Below the pieces are notes generated by a model that made no database searches, was not told the origin of the DNA, and saw only the letters and a program-made list of their open reading frames with translations. Made by a program: the position numbers and the translations under genes. This document shows, piece after piece, positions 1,191 through 40,618 of a stretch of DNA of 64,000 nucleotides; the stretch's first letter is position 1; the number at the start of each line of letters is the position of its first letter. This DNA comes from Slackia sp. (GTDB lineage Bacteria; Actinomycetota; Coriobacteriia; Coriobacteriales; Eggerthellaceae). The DNA lies in the NCBI GenBank assembly GCA_030527325.1, contig JAUNBA010000009.1, forward strand, positions 1 through 64,000, given 5' to 3'.

Positions 1191-2528
1191 TTATCCGATG
1201 CCGCCGTAGAAGATGCCCAGGACGATGACAAGCGCGGTAATGCCGACGAACAAATACTTGGTCATAGGCTCGAACCATGCGCCGATCTTCTTATCGCGAC
1301 CGGTCTGCGCCTGCTCTTTGGCGAAATGCTTCGGGCAAACCCAGAAGAACATGATCGCGGCCAAAAGCGCACCCAAGGGAATAGCATAGATAGACACGGC
1401 ATCCATCCACGTGCTGACCGCATCGCCGCTCTCGATGAACACGCCCACGCCGAATGCGACGGCGGCCACGATGGCGACGGCGGCCCAACGCGGAAGGCGC
1501 AGCTGCTCCTGCAAAGCCTCGATAGGCGTTTCGAACAGGTTCACCAGGCTGGTGATAGCGGCGCATGCGACGGCCAGGAAAAACACGAAGCAGAAGATGC
1601 CGCCGGCGGGCATCGCCTGGAACACCTGGGGCAACGCGATGAACATCAGCGGCGGGCCGGACTGCGTGTCGAGGCCGAACGCGAACACGGCAGGCACCAC
1701 GATCATGGCCGAAAGCACCGCGGCGAGCGTCGAGAAGACGACGACGTTTTTAGCAGACGAAACGACGTCGACGTCCTTTTTCAGATAGCTGCCGTAGACC
1801 AGCGTGCCGCTTCCCGCCAACGAGAGGCCGAAAAACGCCTGGCCGAGAGCGAAAACCCAAGTCTGGGGGTTCGCCAGAGCGCTCCAGTCGGGAACGAACA
1901 GGTACTTATACCCCTCGAGAGCTCCCGGCAGCATGGCGACGCGAATGAGCATGATGACGAACAAGACGAAAAACAGCGGCATCATGATCTTGTTCAGGCG
2001 CTCGATGCCGCGCGAAATGCCCAGCAGCATGACGGCGAAGGTGATGATAAGCGCCGCCGCGTGGAACCCGACGCTGCCGAAATCGCTTGCCAGCCCGCCG
2101 AAATACGCGCCCATATCGGGCACCTGCAGCAACGTGCCGGTGCCGGCGGCCACAAGGTATTTCAAAAACCAGCCGAGCACCACCGAATAGCCGATGGCGA
2201 TGCCGAGCGATCCGAGCGTGGGAATGGCGCCGACGATCTTGCCGATAGGGCCCGCATGCTTGACGCCGCGAAGCTCGAGGGCCTTGGAAAACGCCCCCAT
2301 CGGACCTGTGCCCATAGCGCGGCCGAACGCCATCTCGCCGATGACGCCCGTCAGGCCGAGCAACACGACGAAGATCAAATACGGGATGAGAAACGCCGCG
2401 CCGCCCAATTCGGCGACACGATAGGGAAACAGCCAGATGGCGCTCATGCCCACGGCCGAGCCGATGCAGGCGATGATGAACGCCGTGCGCGAGGTGAACG
2501 AATCGCGCGAAGTGGTTGACGATGCCAT
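1191..2528 (-). CDS. NSS-family sodium-dependent transporter, probable tryptophan importer
   Basis: 445-residue membrane protein of the neurotransmitter:sodium symporter (NSS/SNF) family with about 11-12 hydrophobic helices. Helix 1 carries GSAVGMSAIWLFPY, the family signature, followed by GGAAFLIPYLIF. NSS proteins import amino acids with sodium. The substrate is inferred from regulation: the 5' leader encodes a peptide with three consecutive Trp codons followed by a terminator (see 2670-2735 and 2592-2619), so Trp starvation should raise expression. This fits the bacterial Trp-transporting NSS member TnaT. The ATG at 2528 is preceded by GGAAGG; an upstream in-frame ATG at 2630 lies beyond the terminator and is rejected. 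Oddity: the Asn that in LeuT (Asn27) helps bind Na1 is Ala in helix 1 here. Confidence 0.9.
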   Translation of the reverse strand: MASSTTSRDSFTSRTAFIIACIGSAVGMSAIWLFPYRVAELGGAAFLIPYLIFVVLLGLTGVIGEMAFGRAMGTGPMGAFSKALELRGVKHAGPIGKIVGAIPTLGSLGIAIGYSVVLGWFLKYLVAAGTGTLLQVPDMGAYFGGLASDFGSVGFHAAALIITFAVMLLGISRGIERLNKIMMPLFFVLFVIMLIRVAMLPGALEGYKYLFVPDWSALANPQTWVFALGQAFFGLSLAGSGTLVYGSYLKKDVDVVSSAKNVVVFSTLAAVLSAMIVVPAVFAFGLDTQSGPPLMFIALPQVFQAMPAGGIFCFVFFLAVACAAITSLVNLFETPIEALQEQLRLPRWAAVAIVAAVAFGVGVFIESGDAVSTWMDAVSIYAIPLGALLAAIMFFWVCPKHFAKEQAQTGRDKKIGAWFEPMTKYLFVGITALVIVLGIFYGGIG

Positions 2529-2591
2529 GCGTTGATTTCCTTCCATACCGCCCCGCTCCCGCAGGGCATGCCCGTCCTTGCGGACCCATGC

Positions 2592-2619
2592 AAAAGGGCC
2601 CCGGTCGCCCGGAGCCCTT
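2592..2619 (-). terminator. Attenuator terminator in the transporter leader
   Basis: The minus-strand RNA reads AAGGGCUCCGG, a GCGA tetraloop, then CCGGGGCCCUU followed by UU. This is an 11-bp stem (one G-U pair) with a short U-run, 64-91 bases upstream of the transporter start codon and downstream of the Trp-rich leader peptide. An alternative pairing is possible: GAGCUUU at 2653-2647 can pair with the 5' arm AAGGGCUC and would prevent terminator formation. This is the layout of ribosome-mediated transcription attenuation. Confidence 0.8.
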
Positions 2620-2669
2620 CGTTCATTCAATGTTTGAAACGTGACGAAAGCTCGCGATCGACCGATCGG

Positions 2670-2735
2670 CTAGAAGCTGCGCCACCACCATGCCCGAGAG
2701 GAAACGGTCGATGCGAACACGGATGTCTGGTTCAT
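2670..2735 (-). CDS. Tryptophan leader peptide (21 aa) for the NSS transporter
   Basis: A short ORF starting at ATG 2735 with a strong ribosome site (AAAGGAG, 6 bases before the start) and ending in TAG at 2670. Codons 16-18 are TGG TGG TGG, that is Trp-Trp-Trp, three codons before Phe and stop. Only the 3' flank counts as regulation: the stem-forming segments 2647-2690 and the terminator 2592-2619 follow at once. By analogy with trpL, ribosome stalling at the Trp codons when charged tRNA-Trp is scarce should let GAGCUUU pair with the terminator's 5' arm and allow read-through into the transporter. The peptide itself probably has no function. Confidence 0.85.
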   Translation of the reverse strand: MNQTSVFASTVSSRAWWWRSF

Positions 2736-3015
2736 TGCGACTCCTTTCGAGCGAACATGCGGCGCGCGGCCGCCACGACGGAAAACCGCGGCCTATGGAA
2801 GGAAGCCGCCGTTTCTTATGAGCGCCACTCTACCATAAGAAAGTGCTTTCTCCATCGTAAATCGCCATTATCGGCGGACGGTCCCGCATCATGCCGATTC
2901 CGCGCGGCGCGTCCCGACGAAAACGCTCGGACGCCCCGCCGCATCGAAGGACTTCGCAAGGCACGACGGGCGAAAGCATTGCGTGATGTGACGAAAGTAA
3001 CAAGACGGTTCCGTA

Positions 3016-3042
3016 TTAGCACTCTCGCTTGAAGAGTGCTAA
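3016..3042 (+). promoter_or_regulatory. CIRCE operator (HrcA site) of hsp20
   Basis: Perfect TTAGCACTC-N9-GAGTGCTAA inverted repeat, the canonical CIRCE element bound by the heat-shock repressor HrcA. It covers the -35 box of the hsp20 promoter, so repression by exclusion of polymerase is expected. HrcA itself is not in the window. Confidence 0.95.
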
Positions 3043-29019: not shown

Positions 29020-29616
29020 CTACAACTCGACGACGCGCGTCGCGATGCGCTCGCGCAACATAGGCGAATGGGTCACCGCCACGATCCCCGCGCCCGCCTC
29101 GTCGGCCCAACGCAGCAAACGCTTCCACAAGTCGGCCTGCGTAAGCGCGTCGAGCATGGTGGAAATCTCGTCGCAAACGAGATAGCGCGGCTCGCAGGCA
29201 AGCGCCCGCACGATGCAGACGCGCTGCAGCTCGCCGCCCGACAGCTCATGCGGGCGGCGCGTCAGCCACTCATCGCGCACGCCGACCATCTCGCGCAAGG
29301 AGCCGAGCCGTTCGGGGCCGCACGGGCATTCCGCCAGGCTTTTCCCCATGGTCATCAGCGGATCGAGCATGCGCTCGGGATGCTGCCAGACCATCTGGAC
29401 GGGCGCGGGTCCCTTGCGCGCAAGCGGCGCTCCGTCCAGCGTCACCGCACCCTTCTGCGGTGCGACATAGCCCGCCAGAATGCGGCAGAACGTGGTTTTC
29501 CCCCGGCCCGACGGCGCGCTCAGCGCCACCCGTTCGCCGGGCGAAACGGACATGCTCACGCCTTCGAGAACGGGCGTTTTTCCGTACGAGAATTCGATAT
29601 CGCATGCCTGCAGCAT
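29020..29616 (-). CDS. ABC importer ATPase (NikE/OppF-like), second ATPase of the Nik-type transporter
   Basis: 198-residue ATP-binding subunit. Walker A is SAPSGRGKTTF near residue 36 (the usual second Gly is Arg: GRGKT), signature LSGGELQR near 122, Walker B YLVCDEIST, switch His in VAVTHSP. It is shorter than the usual 250-320 residues and lacks the OppF C-terminal extension. ATG 29616 with AAAGGGG 7 bases before; it starts 46 bases past the... upstream ATPase gene's end overlaps none, so the gap is short and the two are cotranscribed. As the last gene of the operon it pairs with the ATPase at 29663-30604 to drive the permeases. Confidence 0.88.
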   Translation of the reverse strand: MLQACDIEFSYGKTPVLEGVSMSVSPGERVALSAPSGRGKTTFCRILAGYVAPQKGAVTLDGAPLARKGPAPVQMVWQHPERMLDPLMTMGKSLAECPCGPERLGSLREMVGVRDEWLTRRPHELSGGELQRVCIVRALACEPRYLVCDEISTMLDALTQADLWKRLLRWADEAGAGIVAVTHSPMLRERIATRVVEL

Positions 29617-29662
29617 GCCGCACCCCTTTCGACGCGAAACCGCGATCGCGCTATCGACCGCC

Positions 29663-30604
29663 CTAAGCGTCCGATCCCTCGAAACCGTGCTCGGGCAGCG
29701 CATGCCACAACGCGCGGCTGAACGGATGGCGCAAAAGCTCGGGCGACGCGAAATTCGCCACGGCCGTCTCTTCGACCACCGTTCCGTCTTTGAACACCGC
29801 GACGCGATCGGCCACGCGCAACACCAGCTCGATATCGTGCGTGATCAGCAGCACGCCGCCGCCGTCATCGGCGAACGAGCGGAAATCGTCCATCGCGCGC
29901 ACGGCCAAATCGAGATCGAGCCCGGGCGTCGGCTCGTCGGCGACGATAAGGCGGGGACTGTTCACGAGTGCGCAGGCCAAAAGCACGCGACGCGCCATGC
30001 CGCCCGACAGCTCGAACGGATACAGATTCGCCGCACGCTCGTCCAGCCCATAGCGCTCGAACACCTCGCGCCTGCGGCGGCGCGCCTGCTCGGGCGTCGC
30101 ATCATGCACGAACAGCTCGACCTGCCTGCCCACCTTCATCAACGGATCGAGCGCTTCGACGCTTTGGGGAACGAACGCGATCTCGCGGCCGCGCAGGGCA
30201 GCGAGCCTTTCCTCGTCGCACTGCCGTCCGTCGAACCATATCGTTCCCTCCACCAGGGAGTTTTCGGCCGAAAGACCCAAAACGGCATCGGCGAGCAGCG
30301 TCTTGCCCGACCCCGACGCCCCCACGACGGCCACGATTTCGCCCGCATGCACGCCGATGTCGAGCCCATGGATGACCTCGACAGTGCGCCGCGGGGCCGC
30401 AAGCCACGAAAGCAATCCTGCACCGGGGGCATCGTCGTACAGGGAAAACGAGACCGAGAGGCCCTCGACCTGCAACAGATGATGCCCGCCCTCGTGGCGC
30501 GATCGCGCCGCATGGGTGTGATGGTGGTGCACGCCGCCGTCCGCATGGACCACGTCATGTACAGCGTCCGTTGCGGCATCCGCATGCCGTTCGGTATGCA
30601 GCAT
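29663..30604 (-). CDS. ABC importer ATPase (NikD/OppD-like) with a histidine-rich N-terminus
   Basis: 313-residue ATP-binding subunit of an Opp/Nik-type importer. Walker A is GASGSGKTLL near residue 95, signature LSGGMARRV near 198, Walker B RLIVADEPTPGLD, switch His in ITHD. The first 45 residues are unusual: 11 or so histidines, including HHHH and HHLL segments, before the ABC domain proper (VEGLSVSF). Such His tracts are known in nickel-handling proteins (HypB, SlyD), so metal binding is a reasonable inference. ATG 30604 has GGAGGGGG before it. It follows the permease gene by 9 bases. Confidence 0.9.
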   Translation of the reverse strand: MLHTERHADAATDAVHDVVHADGGVHHHHTHAARSRHEGGHHLLQVEGLSVSFSLYDDAPGAGLLSWLAAPRRTVEVIHGLDIGVHAGEIVAVVGASGSGKTLLADAVLGLSAENSLVEGTIWFDGRQCDEERLAALRGREIAFVPQSVEALDPLMKVGRQVELFVHDATPEQARRRRREVFERYGLDERAANLYPFELSGGMARRVLLACALVNSPRLIVADEPTPGLDLDLAVRAMDDFRSFADDGGGVLLITHDIELVLRVADRVAVFKDGTVVEETAVANFASPELLRHPFSRALWHALPEHGFEGSDA

Positions 30605-30613
30605 GACCCCCTC

Positions 30614-31531
30614 CTATTCCTGCGCGCGCGTCGGGTCGGTCAAACGACGCAGGCCCTGCCCCACCGCGTCGAACAGCATGACGACGGCTATGAGGGCCAG
30701 GCCGGGAAACACCGCGAGCCACCACATGCCGGCAGACAAATAGCTCATCGATTCCGACAGAATGATGCCGATGGCCGCCGATTCGGGAGAAAGCCCGAAT
30801 CCGAGAAACGTCACCGACGCCTCATGCAGCACCGCATGAGGGAACAGCAGGATGGTGCCCACGATGAACTGAGGCATGGCATGGGGCAGGATATGCCGCA
30901 TCGCGACCGACAAGCGCGACTGCCCCAGCTTGCGGGAAAGCGCCACGTACGGCGCGTTTTTAGCCTGCAGCACCTCGGCGCGCACCACGCGCGCGAGGCT
31001 CGGCCAATGCGTCAGCGCAATGCCCACGACCACGCCGAAAAAACCCTTGCCCACAGCATACGAGATGAGGATGAGCAGCACGATATGGGGAATGCCCAGC
31101 ATAAGATCGATAAGCCAGGTGACCGCGGCATCGACCTTGCGCCCGCCGAGCGCCGCCGCAGTGCCGAGCGCCAGGGCGATCAGCGCGCTGACCCCCGCCG
31201 CCAAAAGCCCGATCAAAACGCTTTGCGCCAGCCCCGCCGCCGTGCGCACCAGCATATCGTGACCGAGACGGTCTGTGCCGAACGGATGCGCGAGCGACGG
31301 AGCGAGCGAACGGGCGCCCATGTCGGTCTGCACGGCCTGCGGCATAAGCGCCACGCCTACCACCGCCACCGCGAGCAAGATGAGCGCGGCGGCGACCGAC
31401 GTGGCGAACAGGCGACGGCGCGAAGGAACGCGGCGAAGCGTAGGGCAATGAATGATCGGGCGTTTCATGGCGTCGGTCGACGCCGAAACGCCGCCCGCGC
31501 CCACGATATCGGACATGGCGCTAGACGGCAT
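30614..31531 (-). CDS. ABC importer permease (NikC/OppC-like)
   Basis: 305-residue membrane permease with a soluble N-terminus, a first helix near residue 40-60 and five more helices. The segment AHPFGTDRLGHDMLVRTAAG near 85 is the OppC/DppC/NikC hallmark, and the EAA loop (VRAEVLQAKNAPYVALSRKLG) that contacts the ATPase is present near 200. ATG 31531 follows AAGGGGG by 8 bases and overlaps the end of the upstream permease gene by 11 bases, so translation is coupled. Confidence 0.92.
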   Translation of the reverse strand: MPSSAMSDIVGAGGVSASTDAMKRPIIHCPTLRRVPSRRRLFATSVAAALILLAVAVVGVALMPQAVQTDMGARSLAPSLAHPFGTDRLGHDMLVRTAAGLAQSVLIGLLAAGVSALIALALGTAAALGGRKVDAAVTWLIDLMLGIPHIVLLILISYAVGKGFFGVVVGIALTHWPSLARVVRAEVLQAKNAPYVALSRKLGQSRLSVAMRHILPHAMPQFIVGTILLFPHAVLHEASVTFLGFGLSPESAAIGIILSESMSYLSAGMWWLAVFPGLALIAVVMLFDAVGQGLRRLTDPTRAQE

Positions 31532-32507
31532 GCGCAGCCCCCTTCCTGATTCGGGGGTCGATAACGCCGTATAACACATTCGCCGCGAGATTCCCCCCGA
31601 ACACGACAGCCGCCGACGCCAGCGCTATGCCCACGAGCAAGGGCGCATCGCCGCCAAGGCCCGCCGTGACGGCCGCTTGGCCCAGTCCCGGATACGAAAA
31701 CACCTGTTCGACCAGGACGGACCCGCCGAAAATCTCCGAAATGGAGGCGAATTGCAGCGTGATAGCCGGCAGCGCGACATTGCGCAGGCCGTGCAGGCGA
31801 AACGCCTTCCAGGCAGACTGGCCCTGCGCGCGCGCGAAACGCATATACGGGCTCCCCATCACATCGATCGTCTTCTCGCGCGTATGCAGCGCGATGTTCG
31901 CCACGCCCAGAAACGAAAGCACGATGGCAGGCAGGGCCATATGATGCAGAATGTCGCCCAGACCCACGTCTTCGGCGGCCATGCCGATCGGCACTGAGAA
32001 CCCGATCGGAAACCATCCCAAAGCCACGCCGAACACGATGAGCGCAAGCAATCCGAGCCAAAACGTCGGCGTGGAAACGAGCACATAGCAATACACGCGC
32101 ACGATGCGGTCGAGCACGCCGTCGCGACGCAAGCCCGCCGCGACGCCCAACGCGAATCCGAGCACGCCCGAACACGCCCATGCGCAGCCCATCAGCAACA
32201 ACGAATTGCCCGCTCGCCATGCGATGACATCGACCACCGGAGCATTGAAACGCAAGCTTTGACCCATATCGCCTTGCAGGGCGGCGGCGGCCCATTCGAC
32301 GTAGCGCTCCCACAGCGGAGCGTCGGTACCCCAATAAGCCGCAAGCTGAGCCTTCTTCTCGACGCTCATAGACACAAGCGACGCTTGGCCCATGTTCGCC
32401 TGCACGGGATCGATCGGAGACACCGCCACCAGCACGAATGCCACGATGCTCACGGCAACCATGAGCAGCGCGAATTTCAGGATATTTCGTACGACGAATT
32501 TGACCAT
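31521..32507 (-). CDS. ABC importer permease (NikB/OppB-like)
   Basis: 328-residue membrane permease with six predicted helices. The N-terminus (MVKFVVRNILKFALLMVAVS) and the long periplasm-side loop before GDMGQSLRF are typical of OppB/DppB/NikB. The EAA loop (ALHTREKTIDVMGSPYMRFARAQG) lies near residue 205. ATG 32507 has a weak ribosome site. It forms the channel with the OppC-like partner downstream, with which it overlaps by 11 bases. 209 bases separate it from the binding-protein gene; they contain a GC-rich hairpin-prone segment that could lower downstream expression. Confidence 0.93.
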   Translation of the reverse strand: MVKFVVRNILKFALLMVAVSIVAFVLVAVSPIDPVQANMGQASLVSMSVEKKAQLAAYWGTDAPLWERYVEWAAAALQGDMGQSLRFNAPVVDVIAWRAGNSLLLMGCAWACSGVLGFALGVAAGLRRDGVLDRIVRVYCYVLVSTPTFWLGLLALIVFGVALGWFPIGFSVPIGMAAEDVGLGDILHHMALPAIVLSFLGVANIALHTREKTIDVMGSPYMRFARAQGQSAWKAFRLHGLRNVALPAITLQFASISEIFGGSVLVEQVFSYPGLGQAAVTAGLGGDAPLLVGIALASAAVVFGGNLAANVLYGVIDPRIRKGAAHAV

Positions 32508-32716: not shown

Positions 32717-34369
32717 TTACGCCCATGCCCATTCGTCGACGTTGTTCACGATGGACCATCCGTGGCCGTGCGGATGCGGCTTTTGATCGGCCACTTCGAG
32801 GCCGTCGCGGGTGAAGTACAGGTGATCGGCGTTGGCGAGCCACACCCACGGGGCATCGGTATCGGGCGTGACGCCCTCGGCCCCGTCGAACTGCGCCTTG
32901 CGGTACAGCTCATACGACGCCTCGATCGTCGGCGTGGAAACGGCCTGCTCGAGGTATTCGTTGGTGGTCTCGTTGTCGCGGCAGGCGAAATCGGACGTGC
33001 CTTCGGAGTAATTCAGGTTGTAGATTTCGATGGGCGAATTCGACCCCCAGCCCCACAGCTGCGCCTCGCTGTACGACAAAGGCTCGAGGTCGTCCCACGA
33101 CTTGCCCTCGACATTCACCTTGATGCCGAGCGGCGCCATCTGCTCGGCGAAATCGGCCGCCATGGCCTGGCGCATCATGTCGTTGGTCATGTAGTAGAGC
33201 GTGAACTCGGCGCGCACCCCGTCTTTGACCGCGACGCCGTCAGCGCCTACGGCCCAGCCGCCTTCGGCCAAAATGACCTTGGCCTTGTCCACGTCGGTGG
33301 ACACGCGCATGTCCTCGCACGCCCACGGCATGCCGTCGGAGGGGCTGAACGCGGGCGTCGCATGGCCGTTCAAGGCGCGCTCGACCAAAAGCTCGCGATC
33401 GACCGCATGATTCATGGCTCGACGCAAAGAGACGTCGCAGGTCACGTCGTTGCCCGCAGCGTATTCGACGTCGCCGACCGTGCGCTTCGCTCCCGCAGGC
33501 ACCATGGGAAGCGAGATACCGCGCGAGTCGACCGTTTTCACCGACAGCAGCTCGTAGCCGGCAGGCAGCGCATCGGCCATGGTCGCAGAGGTATACGCCA
33601 CGTCGACCTGGCCCGCCTGCGCGGCGGCAAGCGACGCATCCTCGTCCATGAAGACCACGACGACGCGCTGCATCGCAGGAGGCTCGCCGTAATAATCGGG
33701 ATTGGCCTCGAAAATGACCTGCTGGCCGCGATCCCACTGCGCCAGCTTGTAACGCCCCGAGCCCACGGGATTGCTGCCGTAATCGTCCCCATGCGCATGA
33801 GCGGGGCAGATACCGATCGTAGCAAGCGTGTACATGAGGATGTTGAACGGATGCGCCATGCGGATCTCGACCGTCTCGTCGTCGAGCGCCACGGCCTCGG
33901 AAACCATAGAAAGATCGGCCTCGGAAGCAGGCGCGTCTTTGATGCCGTTGATGGTGAAGGCCACGTCTTCGGCGGTCAGCGGCTCGCCGTCGGTGAACAC
34001 GGCGTCGGTGCGAATCTTGAACGTCCACACCATGCCGTCATCGCTGCATTCGTACGACGTGGCCAGATCGTTATGCAGGCCCATGTCGACATCGGTTTTG
34101 ACCAGGGTGGATTGGATCAGCGGCTCATGCACGTGCTCGCCGCAGCCCCACGCCACGAACGGATCGAAGCCCGCTTCGGGCTCGGCATTGGTCGGCATGG
34201 ACACGACGACCTGCGTAGGCTGTTGGGCAGAGCCTGCGGGCGCGTCGGGCTCGGGGGCCTGCTCCCCCGAGGAACACGAGCTCAAAACGCCGGCGAACGC
34301 TGCAGCGGCGCCGCCTGCGGCGAGAAGCTGCGAAAAACGGCGGCGCGACACCACGGTTGATTCTTGCAT
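32717..34369 (-). CDS. Nickel/peptide ABC transporter substrate-binding lipoprotein (NikA/OppA-like)
   Basis: 550-residue SBP family 5 protein, exported and lipid-anchored. The N-terminus has a twin-arginine motif (SRRRFSQLL) followed by a lipobox ending in Cys near residue 31 (VLSSC), so it looks like a Tat lipoprotein. Family 5 features include EPLIQSTLVKTD, LTAEDVAFTINGIKD and YGSNPVGSGRYKL. The C-terminal HPHGHGWSIVNN segment is His-rich. ATG 34369 with GGAGGGG 6 bases before. The operon promoter region carries two tandem NikR-like operators at 34452-34517, so nickel is the likeliest substrate; a peptide or nickel chelate is the alternative. Confidence 0.9.
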   Translation of the reverse strand: MQESTVVSRRRFSQLLAAGGAAAAFAGVLSSCSSGEQAPEPDAPAGSAQQPTQVVVSMPTNAEPEAGFDPFVAWGCGEHVHEPLIQSTLVKTDVDMGLHNDLATSYECSDDGMVWTFKIRTDAVFTDGEPLTAEDVAFTINGIKDAPASEADLSMVSEAVALDDETVEIRMAHPFNILMYTLATIGICPAHAHGDDYGSNPVGSGRYKLAQWDRGQQVIFEANPDYYGEPPAMQRVVVVFMDEDASLAAAQAGQVDVAYTSATMADALPAGYELLSVKTVDSRGISLPMVPAGAKRTVGDVEYAAGNDVTCDVSLRRAMNHAVDRELLVERALNGHATPAFSPSDGMPWACEDMRVSTDVDKAKVILAEGGWAVGADGVAVKDGVRAEFTLYYMTNDMMRQAMAADFAEQMAPLGIKVNVEGKSWDDLEPLSYSEAQLWGWGSNSPIEIYNLNYSEGTSDFACRDNETTNEYLEQAVSTPTIEASYELYRKAQFDGAEGVTPDTDAPWVWLANADHLYFTRDGLEVADQKPHPHGHGWSIVNNVDEWAWA

Positions 34370-34451
34370 GACAGACCCCTCCCTTGGTCGGACGAGAAGC
34401 GAAGCGCTTTGCCGCATGGCAGATCGTCGGCCGCGCTCCGTCGCATCCATA

Positions 34452-34478
34452 GTGTTACCTTTCCAAAACGCGTAACAC
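34452..34478. promoter_or_regulatory. NikR-like operator 1
   Basis: GTGTTAC-N13-GTAACAC, perfect 7-bp inverted repeat, 83-109 bases upstream of the binding-protein start. The consensus I recall for NikR sites in several bacterial lineages is the same, GTGTTAC-N13/14-GTAACAC. No nikR gene is in the window. Confidence 0.7.
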
Positions 34479-34490
34479 CATAATGCAATA

Positions 34491-34517
34491 GTGTTATCGT
34501 TTCAATATTCGTAACAC
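34491..34517. promoter_or_regulatory. NikR-like operator 2
   Basis: GTGTTAT-N13-GTAACAC, one mismatch from operator 1 and the same spacing. Its centre lies 39 bp from that of operator 1, nearly four helical turns, so two repressor tetramers could bind on one face of the DNA. Confidence 0.7.
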
Positions 34518-34617
34518 CAACGGCGCGAAACGGAACGTCTTCGGAAGAAGAAGACCGCCGCACGCCTCCAACGCACGACGGCCTCGCCATCGAAAACCTT
34601 TACGCGCAGCGCGGCGC

Positions 34618-35694
34618 CTACCGCTGCTCGACCGGCACATACGGCACGCCCGCATAGCCGAATGCCGCAGGACCCGCCACGGCAAGGCCCTCGGCCGTGC
34701 GCCATTGCGGCGCGCAGGGAATGCCTACGATCAAGGCGCGGCAGCCGTACTTGAGCGCCTCGCCCGTAATGGGCGTCAGCGTCTCCGCATCGAATGCGGC
34801 GATCAAGTCGGGCGCGGTGCATACCGGGACCCCGTCGCGACGCGCCATGAGGAATTCGTTTTGGAACTCCATCGCGAGCACGCTACCGCGATAGGCGTCG
34901 AGGCCTTCGAGCGTGGCTATGCCGCGCGCGAAACCGCCCTCGGTACGGCGCTCCACATCGCGCACCTTGCCGCAGAACAGCTCGACCGCACCGAGGCGCT
35001 CCATAATTCTGTCGTACGCATCGACCCTGTTCGTGCGGGCGTAGCGCAGCAGCGCCCCCACCTCTTCGCACAGCGTGTACGTGCCGGCCACGCTGTGCGT
35101 TCGCGCCTGGGCCCCCGTCATGCCATAGCACGCCAACGAGATATTGCCGCCCATCGCCACGGTGGCGCCGCGACACAGATCCTCGGCGCGCTTGTTGTCG
35201 CGCGTATCGATCAGCATCGTGTTGCCGCGCTCGTCGGCGACGCCGATAGGCGCGGCGCTCTGCCCGAACACCGACCACGTGACCATCTGCAACTCGGGAA
35301 ACGCACGCCCCATGCCGTCGCCGTCGAGCAACGGAAGGCCGCGGCGCGCGGCAGGAAGCATAGGATGCAACGAATTCCATCCGCCGGCTTCGGAGGGAAG
35401 CAGCGCGTCGAACCGGTAGCCGCACGCATTCTCGAGCACCTCCAGCGCGAATTCGGGCTCGGTGCCGCGCGGCACCTTCTCGACCAGCACCGTCGGCGCG
35501 CCGAGCCCCATCGACACCGCTACGCGCGCGCCATCGGGCACCTCGCCGAGTTCGAGCAGCTCGATGGGGCCGAACTCCTCCACCGTCTGGCGCGCGACGA
35601 CCATGCCCAGATACGGATCGCCGCCGCCTCCCGACGCCATGACCGCAGCGCCGCGCGCGATGTCCTCGACCGCCTGGACCCCCAGTTTCCTCAT
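34618..35694 (-). CDS. DUF917 family protein, copy 1
   Basis: 358-residue cytoplasmic protein of the DUF917 family, which usually sits beside hydantoinase/oxoprolinase subunits. Visible family features: the N-terminal VMASGGGGDPYLG stretch, VLVEKVPRG, LLPSEAGGWNSLHPM, DGDGMGRAFPELQM, and a C-terminal YGCRALIVGIPC. The fold is unrelated to a known catalytic family by eye. Starts at ATG 35694 after a moderate AAGGATGG site; the HyuA gene ends 35 bases before. It is about as long as copy 2 (37334-38407), with the same motif order, so the pair is paralogous. The role is unknown; it may act as partner of the HyuA protein. Confidence 0.85.
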   Translation of the reverse strand: MRKLGVQAVEDIARGAAVMASGGGGDPYLGMVVARQTVEEFGPIELLELGEVPDGARVAVSMGLGAPTVLVEKVPRGTEPEFALEVLENACGYRFDALLPSEAGGWNSLHPMLPAARRGLPLLDGDGMGRAFPELQMVTWSVFGQSAAPIGVADERGNTMLIDTRDNKRAEDLCRGATVAMGGNISLACYGMTGAQARTHSVAGTYTLCEEVGALLRYARTNRVDAYDRIMERLGAVELFCGKVRDVERRTEGGFARGIATLEGLDAYRGSVLAMEFQNEFLMARRDGVPVCTAPDLIAAFDAETLTPITGEALKYGCRALIVGIPCAPQWRTAEGLAVAGPAAFGYAGVPYVPVEQR

Positions 35695-35729
35695 GTCTAT
35701 CCAACCATCCTTCGCACAACCCGCAACGC

Positions 35730-37295
35730 CTACAGCCTCAAGCTGCCGACGGCCTTCGCCCGCACGCGCGTGGCGTTGCCAGGCAGATAGGCCAACGGCA
35801 CGTCTTCCACATCGACGATTTCGATCGTATCGGGGTCGGCCCCCGCCTTGACGGCCTCGTCCCTCGCAAGACCCTTCGCCGCTTCAAGCGCCTCGGCACG
35901 CCCCATCTCATCCAGCGAGAAAATGCGCTCGACCTGGCCCGATACCTGCGAAATCGCACTGCCGATCGCATTGGCGACGCCGAAGTTCGCAGGCCTGTGC
36001 ACGGCGCGCACGCCTTTGAGCGTATCAGGAACGAGGATCGATCCGCCGCCCACCAAGATGACGTCGACATCGCCCGCACTCGTCTTCATCGCATCGACGC
36101 GCTCTTCGACCATGCGCGCCATTTCCGCCGAGGCGGCGTCGACCAACGCGGAATCGAGCCCTGCGACCTTGGAAGGATCGCCCACGCCGCAAGCCGCGCC
36201 CGCCGCCACGGCGATGTCGGTCGCCGTCAACACGTCGCCGCCGAAGCACAGCGCGCGCGTCGTCACCTGATAGCCCACCGAATCGGGACCGACCGTGACG
36301 CGTCCGTCTTCATGCCTGCGCACGATGGAGCCGCCGCCGAGCCCGATCGAGATGACGTCCGGCATGCGGAAATTCGTGCGCACGCCGCCGATCTCGACCG
36401 CAAGCAGGCTCTCGCGCGGGAAACCGTGCGAGAGCGCGCCCAGGTCGGCCGTCGTGCCGCCGACGTCCACCACCACGGCATCGTCGAGGCCCGTCAGAAA
36501 CGACGCGCCACGAATGGAGTTGGTGGGGCCGCACGCGATGGTGAGGATCGGATAGCGCATGGCGTAAGCCGCGCTCATCAATGTGCCGTCGTTCTGGCAC
36601 AGATACACCTCGGCATCTTCGATGCCCTCGGCGGCCAAGGCGGCGACGAAGCTTTCGGACGTGGTCTTCGCCACCGACACCAGCGCCGCATTGAGAATGG
36701 TGGCGTTTTCGCGCTCGAGCAGGCTCACGCTACCGATCTCGCTGGAAATGGAAATCGGGAAATCGTCTCCGAGCCTGGCGCGCACGATGGCGGCGGCGCG
36801 CTTTTCGTGCGATGCGTCCACCGGCGAGAACACGCTGGAAATGGCCACGCTCTCGCACGTGCCGTCGATTTCGGCCGCGATGCGCTCGAGCTCGGCCGTA
36901 TCGAGCGGCGCGATCTCGCGGCCGTCGAATTCATGGCCGCCGCCCACCAGATACCAGCGGTCGCTGATGGCCTCGCGCAGGTCGGCGGGCCAATCCACCA
37001 TGGGCTTGATGGCCGCCGTCGCAGGCGCCCCCAGACGTATGACCGCCACGCGATCGAGCCTCTTGCGCTCCACGATCGCGTTCGTGCAATGCGTGGTTCC
37101 GAGCATCGCATACCCGATGCGCTCGCGTGCGGCGGGCGCCTGGGCGAGGGCGGACGCCATCGCATCGCGAATCCCGCCCATCACGTCTTCGGTGGTCGGA
37201 CGCTTCACAGCCGCCACCAGATTCAATTCGTCGTCGAGCACCACGACGTCGGTATTGGTTCCGCCGACGTCGATGCCTATTCTCCAATCGCGCAT
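35730..37295 (-). CDS. Hydantoinase/oxoprolinase A subunit (HyuA family)
   Basis: 521-residue ATP-dependent hydrolase subunit of the hydantoinase A / N-methylhydantoinase / acetone carboxylase family. The actin-like ATP motif IGIDVGGTNTDVVVLDD lies at residues 7-20. TTHCTNAIVERK near 70 and VVDVGGTTADLGAL near 275 are the two other phosphate loops. No HyuB (the usual second subunit) is adjacent; DUF917 proteins flank it on both sides. ATG 37295 has a strong GGAGGAG site. It probably cleaves a lactam, hydantoin or amide with ATP; the substrate is not visible. Confidence 0.9.
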   Translation of the reverse strand: MRDWRIGIDVGGTNTDVVVLDDELNLVAAVKRPTTEDVMGGIRDAMASALAQAPAARERIGYAMLGTTHCTNAIVERKRLDRVAVIRLGAPATAAIKPMVDWPADLREAISDRWYLVGGGHEFDGREIAPLDTAELERIAAEIDGTCESVAISSVFSPVDASHEKRAAAIVRARLGDDFPISISSEIGSVSLLERENATILNAALVSVAKTTSESFVAALAAEGIEDAEVYLCQNDGTLMSAAYAMRYPILTIACGPTNSIRGASFLTGLDDAVVVDVGGTTADLGALSHGFPRESLLAVEIGGVRTNFRMPDVISIGLGGGSIVRRHEDGRVTVGPDSVGYQVTTRALCFGGDVLTATDIAVAAGAACGVGDPSKVAGLDSALVDAASAEMARMVEERVDAMKTSAGDVDVILVGGGSILVPDTLKGVRAVHRPANFGVANAIGSAISQVSGQVERIFSLDEMGRAEALEAAKGLARDEAVKAGADPDTIEIVDVEDVPLAYLPGNATRVRAKAVGSLRL

Positions 37296-37333
37296 TTCAC
37301 TCCTCCTGACGGAAATCGAGGCGGGCGCCCCGC

Positions 37334-38407
37334 CTATCGCTTTTCCACGGGCACGTAATCGATTTCATAGCCGAACGAACGCGGACCGGCGATCCTCAAA
37401 CCGCGCGGACTGCGCCAATGCTCATGCACGGGAATGCCAGCAACCACGACGCGGGCGCCGTACTTCAACGCCTCGGTCGTGATGGGCAGCGCCGTTTCCG
37501 CATCGAGCACGGCAATCAGGTCGGGGGCGCTGCACAGCACCGCGCCGTCGGCGCGCGCGATCAGATGCTCGTTTTGGAACTCGATCTCGCAAGTGCGGCC
37601 GCTATAGCCGTCGATACCTTCGAAATGCGCATAGCCGCGCACGAATCCGCCCGCCGTGCGCCGCGATACATCGTCGAGCTTGCCGCGGAACAGCTCCTTG
37701 CCGCGAAGCATGGCGAGAATCGCGGGAAGCGGGTCGCCGCCCTCTTCGCGTGCCTCGCGAATCGCGCGACCCACCGCCTCGCAATACGTCGACGTGCCGG
37801 GAATGCTCGTCTTTTTGGCCTGCGCGCCCGTCATGGCGTAATCGGCCATGAACACGCTGCCGCCTGTAGTGACGGCCACGTTGCGCGCCAAACGCTCGGC
37901 CCATTCGTTGTCCGCCGCCTCGAGCACCACGGTGTCGCCCTTTTCGTCGCACACCGCCGCAGGGCACGCCGGCACGTCGAACAGCGTCCAAGTCACATGA
38001 CGCAGCTCGGGAAACGCACGGCCCATGCCGTCGGCGTCCACGATCGGCACGCCTTTGGCCGCCGCCACCTGAAACGGCAGAAGCGAATTCAACCCGCCTG
38101 CTTCAAGCGGCATGATGGCGTCGAACGCACGCCCGAAACGGGCTTCGAGCGCCTCGACGGCACCGACCCCTTCGCGGCCGTTGGGCACTTTTTCCACCAG
38201 CACCGTCGGCGCGCCGAGCATATGGGACGCGCAGACCCACGCGTCGTCGTCAAGCTCGTCGAGCGTCACCATCCGAAACGGCCCGTATTCGTCGATGGCC
38301 TGCAGCGCCATGAGCTTGCCGATATACGGATCGCCTCCGCCGCCTGAAGCAAGCACCGCCGCGCCGACGGCCATATCCTCCACTTCCTGTTTGCCGATAA
38401 TGCGCAC
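37334..38407 (-). CDS. DUF917 family protein, copy 2
   Basis: 357-residue paralogue of the protein at 34618-35694, with the same blocks: VLASGGGGDPYIG, VLVEKVPNG, IMPLEAGGLNSLLPF, DADGMGRAFPELRH and YGARVVVAGIPV. The start is GTG at 38407 with AAAGGAGG before it; upstream in-frame sequence to 39022 belongs to an antisense-like extension and is not used. HyuA follows 38 bases later. Two divergent copies around one HyuA suggest a hetero-complex, an inference only. Confidence 0.85.
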   Translation of the reverse strand: MRIIGKQEVEDMAVGAAVLASGGGGDPYIGKLMALQAIDEYGPFRMVTLDELDDDAWVCASHMLGAPTVLVEKVPNGREGVGAVEALEARFGRAFDAIMPLEAGGLNSLLPFQVAAAKGVPIVDADGMGRAFPELRHVTWTLFDVPACPAAVCDEKGDTVVLEAADNEWAERLARNVAVTTGGSVFMADYAMTGAQAKKTSIPGTSTYCEAVGRAIREAREEGGDPLPAILAMLRGKELFRGKLDDVSRRTAGGFVRGYAHFEGIDGYSGRTCEIEFQNEHLIARADGAVLCSAPDLIAVLDAETALPITTEALKYGARVVVAGIPVHEHWRSPRGLRIAGPRSFGYEIDYVPVEKR

Positions 38408-38550
38408 GGCATCCTCCTTTCCGAACGCGGGCGTCCCGAGCGCGACGTCCGCGCGATCGCATCGAGCGCCTTCGTCCTGCGAGACACGATGCCCGCGAAC
38501 GCTTCGTCCGTCTCGTGGCGAAACACCGTCCTGCAGGCATGCGGCACCGT

Positions 38551-39510
38551 TTACGCCAGCTCGTCGACCGGCGGCGTGGCGCCGAATCCCTGCAAACCGC
38601 CCATATCGCCGTAGCGATCGACGAACGCGCGATATTCGGCCTCGTCGCACAACGAGCAGGCGCCGGCGCCGAACGCCTTGGCGGCTTCGATCATGAACGT
38701 GCCCGCTTCGTCCAAATCGCCCAGACGCGTGGCGCCGGTGGCGCATCCCGCCACGGCGGTCTCGGTGGTGATGGCGACGCCGACGACGGGCGCATCGGTG
38801 CAGGTGCACGGCTGCAGGATGCTGTTGAGGTGGTACAGACCGTTGCCGTACGGCGTGATATCGGCCATCGACAGCGCGAACACGTGCGGCAGGCGCCCCG
38901 TGGCGGTCTGGGCAAGATCGAGCAGGTCTTCGCTGACGCGCATGATGACGCCGCGTTTGACCGTTGGGCTGATGGCGAATCCGCGCGCATTGATGATGCG
39001 ATTGCCCTTGGTGGTGTCGCACACCAGGATGGCGTCGAGCTCGTCGGTCACCTCTTCTTTATTGATAGCCGCCGTCGACGTGGGCGAGCCCATGAACGGC
39101 ACGGGGTCGTGCGGGAAGGTGGGCGCATGCGGGCACACGTGCGTGGAGACGAACACGTCGCCTGGCAGCACATCGCCCTTGCGGCGCATGTCGACAAGCT
39201 TCGCCGCGCAGGCGAGCGCGGTAAGCGCGCCGTCGCCGTCGGACACGAAACCGATGCGCTCGGGCCGCGCGCCCAGGCCGCCCAAGCGCCCCAGAAGGCC
39301 CATCGTGGGCGCGTCGCCCCCCGCCGTCTTGCCGTGCGCGCCGGGAATCCGGACACGCACCATATCGGTGCTGCCTTTAGGGCCTTCCAGCGCGTAGGTT
39401 TCGACGTCGCAATCAGGGTCGATGCCGCGCAAATACGCCGCCGCCGCAGCGCCGCTCGCCTGCGGGGAGTCCAAAACGTCGTACAGATCCATCAGATATC
39501 GCAGGAGCAT
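38551..39510 (-). CDS. DUF1177 family protein
   Basis: 319-residue cytoplasmic protein of the DUF1177 family, function unknown. It has many conserved charged and His residues: RVRIPGAHGKTAGGDAPTMG (in part), FVSTHVCPHAPTFPHDPVPF near residue 115, LVCDTTKGNRI near 155, and a Cys-rich stretch (QPCTCTDAPV). The His/Asp pattern would suit a metallohydrolase, but I do not see a known zinc motif. DUF1177 genes commonly cluster with DUF917 and HyuA genes, as here. ATG 39510 has AAAGGA 9 bases before. It is the first gene of the cluster; 143 bases separate it from DUF917 copy 2. Confidence 0.82.
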   Translation of the reverse strand: MLLRYLMDLYDVLDSPQASGAAAAAYLRGIDPDCDVETYALEGPKGSTDMVRVRIPGAHGKTAGGDAPTMGLLGRLGGLGARPERIGFVSDGDGALTALACAAKLVDMRRKGDVLPGDVFVSTHVCPHAPTFPHDPVPFMGSPTSTAAINKEEVTDELDAILVCDTTKGNRIINARGFAISPTVKRGVIMRVSEDLLDLAQTATGRLPHVFALSMADITPYGNGLYHLNSILQPCTCTDAPVVGVAITTETAVAGCATGATRLGDLDEAGTFMIEAAKAFGAGACSLCDEAEYRAFVDRYGDMGGLQGFGATPPVDELA

Positions 39511-39767
39511 GGAGCGGTCCTTTCGTCGTGCGCCGAAGAAGGCGCGGGGCTTGCGAGCGGCATTGCCGCCGAACATGAAAGAGCGCGCAGACGTCCGCAT
39601 AGCCCGAACATCTGCGCGCGCGAATCCATCCGCCCCATTGTAGCGCCCTGCCGCCGCTTCTGCAGCAAAGCAGCGTGCTAAAGCGCCACGACGGCGGCGA
39701 ACGAGCGGGGCGTCGACCGAGGCGCAGACGAACCGCGGCGATCCGACGCGCGGCGGCCTCGTGCCGC

Positions 39768-39773
39768 TACAAT
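39768..39773 (+). promoter_or_regulatory. Candidate -10 box of the amidase gene
   Basis: TACAAT at 39768-39773, 27-32 bases upstream of the start of the carbon-nitrogen hydrolase. A minus-strand TACAAT at 39637-39642 could serve the DUF1177 cluster. Neither has a clear -35 box. The 39511-39799 gap otherwise holds nothing I recognise. Confidence 0.35.
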
Positions 39774-39799
39774 AGGCGAAACGAACCGAAAGGACGCTT

Positions 39800-40618
39800 A
39801 TGAAGAATGCCTGGATCGCCCTCGTGCAATTCGAGGGTACGCTCGGCGACGTCGAGCAGAACGTGGAGCGCGCGTGCGATATCGTGAAAGAAGCCGCCGA
39901 ACACGGAGCCGACCTGGTGGTATTCCCCGAACTGTTCAGCACGGGCTACCATCTGGACACCATCGGACCGCGCATCGTCGAGCTGGCCGAGCCGATCGAC
40001 GGACCCACCGTACGCGCCATGCGGCAGGCGGCGCGCGAGGCGGGCTGCTACGTGGTGGCGCCGATCGCCCTCGTGCGCGAAGTCGGCGGCGTGCCGTTCA
40101 ACAGCGCCGTGCTCATCGACCGCCAAGGCAACGTGGCAGGCAGCTACGACAAAGTGCATCTGTGGGCGCTCGAGCGCTTCTATTTCCGCGCGGGCGCAAA
40201 CTATCCGGTGTTCGACACCGATTTCGGACGCCTGGGCATCATGATCTGTTACGACATGGGCTTCCCCGAGGCGGCTCGTTCGCTGACATTGCAGGGCGCC
40301 GACCTGATCGTCTGCCCGAGCGCCTGGTGCGCCGAGGATATGGACGTCTGGGAAATCAACGCGCCGGCGCGCGCCCTGGAAAACACCGTGTTTTTGGCAG
40401 CCTGCAACCGCTTCGGCCGCGAAGGCGACGATTTGTATATGCCCGGCAAATCCATGGTATGCAACCCGCGCGGCAAGAAAATCGCCCAGCTCGAAGACGA
40501 AGCGGCGGGCATCCTCTACGTCGATTTGAAAGCCGCCGACATCGACACGTATCGCGTGAAAAGCCCGTATATGCGCGACCGTCGCGCCGACACCTACGCC
40601 GACGTGGCCCGCTGGTAA
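39800..40618 (+). CDS. Carbon-nitrogen hydrolase (nitrilase superfamily amidase)
   Basis: 272-residue cytoplasmic amidase. The Glu-Lys-Cys triad is visible: Glu in VVFPELFSTGY near residue 45, Lys in SYDKVHLWALE near 117, Cys in IMICYDMGFPEAAR near 152. The family includes N-carbamoylputrescine amidase, omega-amidase and deaminated-glutathione amidase. ATG 39800 follows GAAAGGACGCTT. It is divergent from the DUF1177/DUF917/HyuA cluster, so one idea is that it removes ammonia or CO2 from a carbamoyl intermediate made by that cluster; no direct evidence. Confidence 0.9.
   Translation: MKNAWIALVQFEGTLGDVEQNVERACDIVKEAAEHGADLVVFPELFSTGYHLDTIGPRIVELAEPIDGPTVRAMRQAAREAGCYVVAPIALVREVGGVPFNSAVLIDRQGNVAGSYDKVHLWALERFYFRAGANYPVFDTDFGRLGIMICYDMGFPEAARSLTLQGADLIVCPSAWCAEDMDVWEINAPARALENTVFLAACNRFGREGDDLYMPGKSMVCNPRGKKIAQLEDEAAGILYVDLKAADIDTYRVKSPYMRDRRADTYADVARW

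Follow-up and report, generated by a model that had tools for sequence, protein, structure and literature searches.

The signal of NikR in delta-proteobacteria has been derived as the inverted repeat GTGTTAC-N13/14-GTAACAC (PMC545781), and in Proteus mirabilis the Ynt system is reported to be the main nickel importer, which serves mainly urease (PMC11026637). In this study, a stretch of 64,000 nucleotides from a Slackia sp. genome (hereafter, the window) was analysed, in which two palindromes of this kind lie upstream of an ABC transporter operon. We consider it highly probable, judging from the sequence, that these palindromes are NikR operators overlapping the only promoter predicted for the five genes of a YntABCDE-like nickel importer, which would be repressed by nickel. 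The features concerned are as follows.

34452 to 34478, no strand: proximal NikR operator (putative), GTGTTAC-N13-GTAACAC, over the -10 and the predicted transcription start; conserved in orthologous promoters
34491 to 34517, no strand: distal NikR operator (putative), GTGTTAT-N13-GTAACAC, over the -35; a second site is present in 37 of 42 orthologous promoters
34500 to 34505, minus strand: predicted -35 hexamer TTGAAA, inside the distal operator
34477 to 34482, minus strand: predicted -10 hexamer TATGGT, overlapping the proximal operator; a -10-like stretch is found here in most orthologues
34376 to 34385, minus strand: likely ribosome-binding site, AAGGGAGGGG
32717 to 34369, minus strand: YntA-like solute-binding protein (SBP_bac_5), predicted to bind nickel
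31521 to 32507, minus strand: permease of the NikB/OppB type
30614 to 31516, minus strand: permease of the NikC/OppC type
29663 to 30604, minus strand: ABC ATPase of the NikD type
29020 to 29703, minus strand: ABC ATPase of the NikE type, overlapping the preceding ATPase gene

The plus strand reads GTGTTACCTTTCCAAAACGCGTAACAC at the proximal operator and GTGTTATCGTTTCAATATTCGTAACAC at the distal operator. As the preliminary description had indicated, the two palindromes are placed 39 bp apart from start to start, with a gap of 12 bp between them; the distal one departs once from perfect symmetry. Both show the inverted repeat GTGTTAC-N13/14-GTAACAC by which GTGTTAC-type NikR operators are recognized (PMC545781). 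The consensus given in the preliminary description for NikR of other bacteria is the one published for delta-proteobacterial NikR. The exact pattern gave three strand matches in the window against 0.00 expected from 100 dinucleotide-preserving shuffles, and when the genome (1.67 Mb, 85% complete) was scanned, these two were the sole exact sites. With N13 or N14 spacers and up to two mismatches, further matches in the genome were at chance level only; the single other place with two mismatches is counted as chance because the reversed-pattern control yielded six.

A promoter scan of positions 34300-34700 detected only one promoter-like site, which is predicted from a consensus match at 9 of 12 positions. 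If this promoter is right, transcription would start near 34470 and the proximal operator would span roughly -8 to +19. The predicted -10 overlaps the proximal operator and the predicted -35 falls within the distal one, so the simplest model is steric exclusion of RNA polymerase. When nickel is plentiful, nickel-bound NikR would occupy the proximal site, covering the -10 and the transcription start, as well as the distal site, covering the -35, and RNA polymerase would be kept off; when nickel is scarce, NikR would be released and the importer would be made. The imported nickel would then feed at least the [NiFe] hydrogenase.

In the orientation of the gene, the distal operator is followed by the proximal operator, about 82 bp and the start codon. 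Translation of the binding protein probably begins at ATG 34369, which has the likely ribosome-binding site just upstream. A start at 34450, which would give a longer open reading frame abutting the operator, was rejected, having no such ribosome-binding site. Hence the operators do precede the gene as described earlier, although not as closely, the nearer one ending 82 bp before the likely start. The N-terminus of the binding protein (window 34270-34369) contains a twin-arginine-like stretch, SRRRFSQLL, and a lipobox-like SSC, and the protein may accordingly be a Tat-exported lipoprotein. The order of the five genes is kept across Coriobacteriia. Upstream of the operon, at 34618-39942 of the window, are two S-Me-THD (DUF917) genes, a hydantoinase A-like gene and DUF1177. 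A tie between the operon and this hydantoinase/S-Me-THD cluster was considered and rejected because the two are neighbours in just the four closest Slackia loci, and the operon is conserved elsewhere without the cluster.

A search for nikR, proposed as a check in the preliminary description, gave a positive result. The genome encodes one NikR_C protein, on a contig different from that of the operon, and its score of 163.5 bits passes the curated cut-off of 105 bits of the NCBIfam NikR equivalog. In alignments with the NikR structures from Pyrococcus, Helicobacter and E. coli, it keeps all of the H, H-x-H and C positions that serve as nickel ligands in NikR. Its gene (L001:1330-1872) specifies a histidine-rich C-terminal tail, HGHSHSHAHDCDHTHDHEARDHE; elsewhere in the genus such tails vary in length and histidine content, and they are absent in most other family members compared. 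The DNA-binding strand RFSVAMP was observed in nearly all NikR proteins compared in the family, with RFSIAMP or RFSVTMP in a few.

Regarding the transporter, the closest solved protein to the binding protein is Yersinia pestis YntA (4ofl), with 334 bits over residues 60-549, compared with 83-86 bits for E. coli NikA and 61 bits for OppA. For the binding protein and the permeases, the NCBIfam scores were far under the cut-offs of the E. coli-type NikABCDE equivalogs (NikA, 138.5 against 393 bits; NikB, 182.1 against 447 bits); therefore, the assignment of the substrate rests on the relatedness to YntA and on the regulation. The operon had been described as Opp/Nik-type, which holds for the importer family, whereas the binding protein is Ynt-like and not E. 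coli Nik-like. The prediction that the transporter is a nickel importer is supported by this closest solved relative and by the replacement of the operon with NikM/CbiM within the genus, described below. As to nickel users, a [NiFe] hydrogenase is encoded in the genome, and the urease, LarA and Prismane/CODH families were not found in the 85% complete sequence. The preliminary description had also suggested a scan for the motif near other nickel genes, although a NikR regulon does not require such sites: only the two sites of the window were above chance, and no site with up to two mismatches was found near the hydrogenase in the same 85% complete genome.

Homologous loci were then compared across Eggerthellaceae. 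The exact motif was found in 65 of 138 family genomes, against one for the reversed-pattern control, and NikR was found in 132. All 65 belong to the genomes with NikR (65/132), compared with 0/6 among those without it (Fisher p 0.03). The transporter is absent in five of these six NikR-negative genomes; the sixth, G042, has the transporter and keeps degenerate sites, and its missing NikR is perhaps due to incompleteness of the genome. As the preliminary description had anticipated, orthologous loci share the motif: it precedes an orthologue of the binding protein in 26 of the 30 motif loci retrieved, the other four having no such orthologue. In one of these four (L035), the motif lies between unrelated genes and may be a chance occurrence. 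Orthologues in genomes without the exact motif mostly carry versions with one or two mismatches. The binding protein is 90% identical to its Slackia faecicanis counterpart, which puts the genome within Slackia or close to it.

Furthermore, the second site was examined in 42 orthologous promoters chosen for a near-perfect proximal site. A second site with at most three mismatches, within 100 bp upstream of the proximal site, was present in 37 of them, whereas more distant control windows gave 1/41, 0/40 and 0/39. An extended -10 resembling TGCTATAGT abuts the proximal operator in most loci having 52-54 bp spacing. In Collinsella orthologues (L098, L101 and L103), the variant GTGATAC-N14-GTAACAC, with a 14-bp spacer, precedes the binding-protein gene, which may point to a shifted site for NikR there. 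In Candidatus Aphodovivens (L070 and L072), same-direction GTGTTAC half-sites replace the distal site upstream of this gene, repeated every 20 bp before the proximal palindrome.

Within Slackia, the binding-protein orthologue and the exact motif are found together in nine of 12 genomes, and the other three have neither operon nor motif (co-occurrence p 0.005); the genomes being related and small in number, these counts cannot be treated as independent. Two of the three have NikR together with a CbiM/NikM gene, which is found nowhere else in the genus, and the third lacks NikR too. In one of the two NikM genomes, sites with three and one mismatches lie just before nikM (L215 1416 and 1459; ATG 1498), and in the other a two-mismatch site lies about 130 bp from nikM, on its upstream side. 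Because NikM/CbiM with nearby sites is found in Slackia lacking the operon, the operator goes with the nickel transporter rather than with one gene family.

The preliminary description proposed that two NikR tetramers bind cooperatively at sites four helical turns apart; tetramers touching each other on the same face of the DNA would give a steeper response to nickel. Conservation of the second site in most promoters is in line with this, as is the clustering of spacings near 39-46 and 51-54 bp. However, 39 bp corresponds to 3.7 turns at 10.5 bp per turn, and the spacing among orthologues varies from 38 to 63 bp with 46 included, so that no strict phase is kept. When each distinct spacing was counted once, the spacings were not significantly periodic (Rayleigh p ~0.17 at 10.5 bp). 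Strict helical phasing had looked good on the first 37 promoters and was dropped when further orthologues gave 46 and 51 bp and no significant periodicity. Moreover, separate cover of the -35 and the -10 also explains the positions of the sites, and some orthologues show one clear site only. We therefore regard cooperative binding as unlikely. Thus the earlier reading as NikR operators on a nickel importer is retained as the preferred one, and its four helical turns and cooperative pair of tetramers are not.

It is less probable still that the proximal palindrome alone is functional and that the distal copy is a weaker relic or an auxiliary site. In many orthologues the distal copy is indeed more degenerate, with two to three mismatches, but its presence in 37/42 promoters against 1/41 in a control window, together with the single departure from symmetry here, speaks against this reading. 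Finally, it is very improbable that the palindromes bind another regulator sharing the consensus and that the substrate of the transporter is a peptide or a metal other than nickel, for example cobalt. In favour of this, the importer belongs to the broad Opp/Nik family, its binding and transport of nickel are predictions, and G042 has degenerate sites with no NikR found. Against it, the consensus is identical to the published NikR signal (PMC545781), every genome with the exact motif has NikR, the motif also precedes nikM in one Slackia genome without the operon, and among solved proteins YntA matches the binding protein far better than any other.

NikR control may extend further. In G026 (L045:1501-1527), the exact motif immediately precedes an ABC permease and ATPase of the BtuC/FecCD type (1585-3025), a candidate for a different type of importer that would take up nickel or a metallophore. 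At L038:1501-1527, it lies upstream of a methyltransferase-like open reading frame followed by an Opp/Nik-type permease-like one (identified by eye); this may be a further operon for the uptake of nickel. We see about even chances that NikR controls different nickel transporters throughout Eggerthellaceae, namely Ynt-like ABC, NikM and perhaps BtuC/FecCD-type systems, through a conserved two-operator promoter with one site over the -10 and the start and the other over the -35 or further upstream. If true, the promoter would serve as a portable two-site switch for nickel.

This kind of nickel switch is in itself already known; an earlier description of it in Eggerthellaceae, or of the conserved double-operator layout, was not found in the searchable literature. 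The present reading would add a family of gut Actinomycetota to the range of the NikR switch that uses the delta-proteobacterial operator, and would assign nickel as the likely substrate of an importer for which the family models are divided between transport of peptides and of nickel. In such bacteria, [NiFe] hydrogenase is limited by the supply of nickel.

Compared with known systems, the operon resembles YntABCDE of Yersinia and Proteus in having a binding protein, two permeases and two ATPases. The Proteus system mainly serves urease (PMC11026637), whereas here a [NiFe] hydrogenase is present and no urease was found. E. coli likewise combines a NikR-family repressor with an Opp/Nik-family nickel ABC importer, NikABCDE; however, its site, GTATGA-N16-TCATAC (PMC7055735), differs from that of Slackia, and its nikR adjoins the operon, whereas the Slackia nikR is on another contig. 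The closest likeness in the operator is to the delta-proteobacteria Geobacter and Desulfovibrio (PMC545781), where the same inverted repeat, GTGTTAC-N13/14-GTAACAC, precedes a nickel transporter operon in genomes that encode nikR. There the repeat is mostly found before nikMNQO-type operons, whereas here it precedes a Ynt-like ABC operon in Coriobacteriia, and the placement of two operators over one predicted promoter distinguishes the Slackia locus from the delta-proteobacterial NikR operators.
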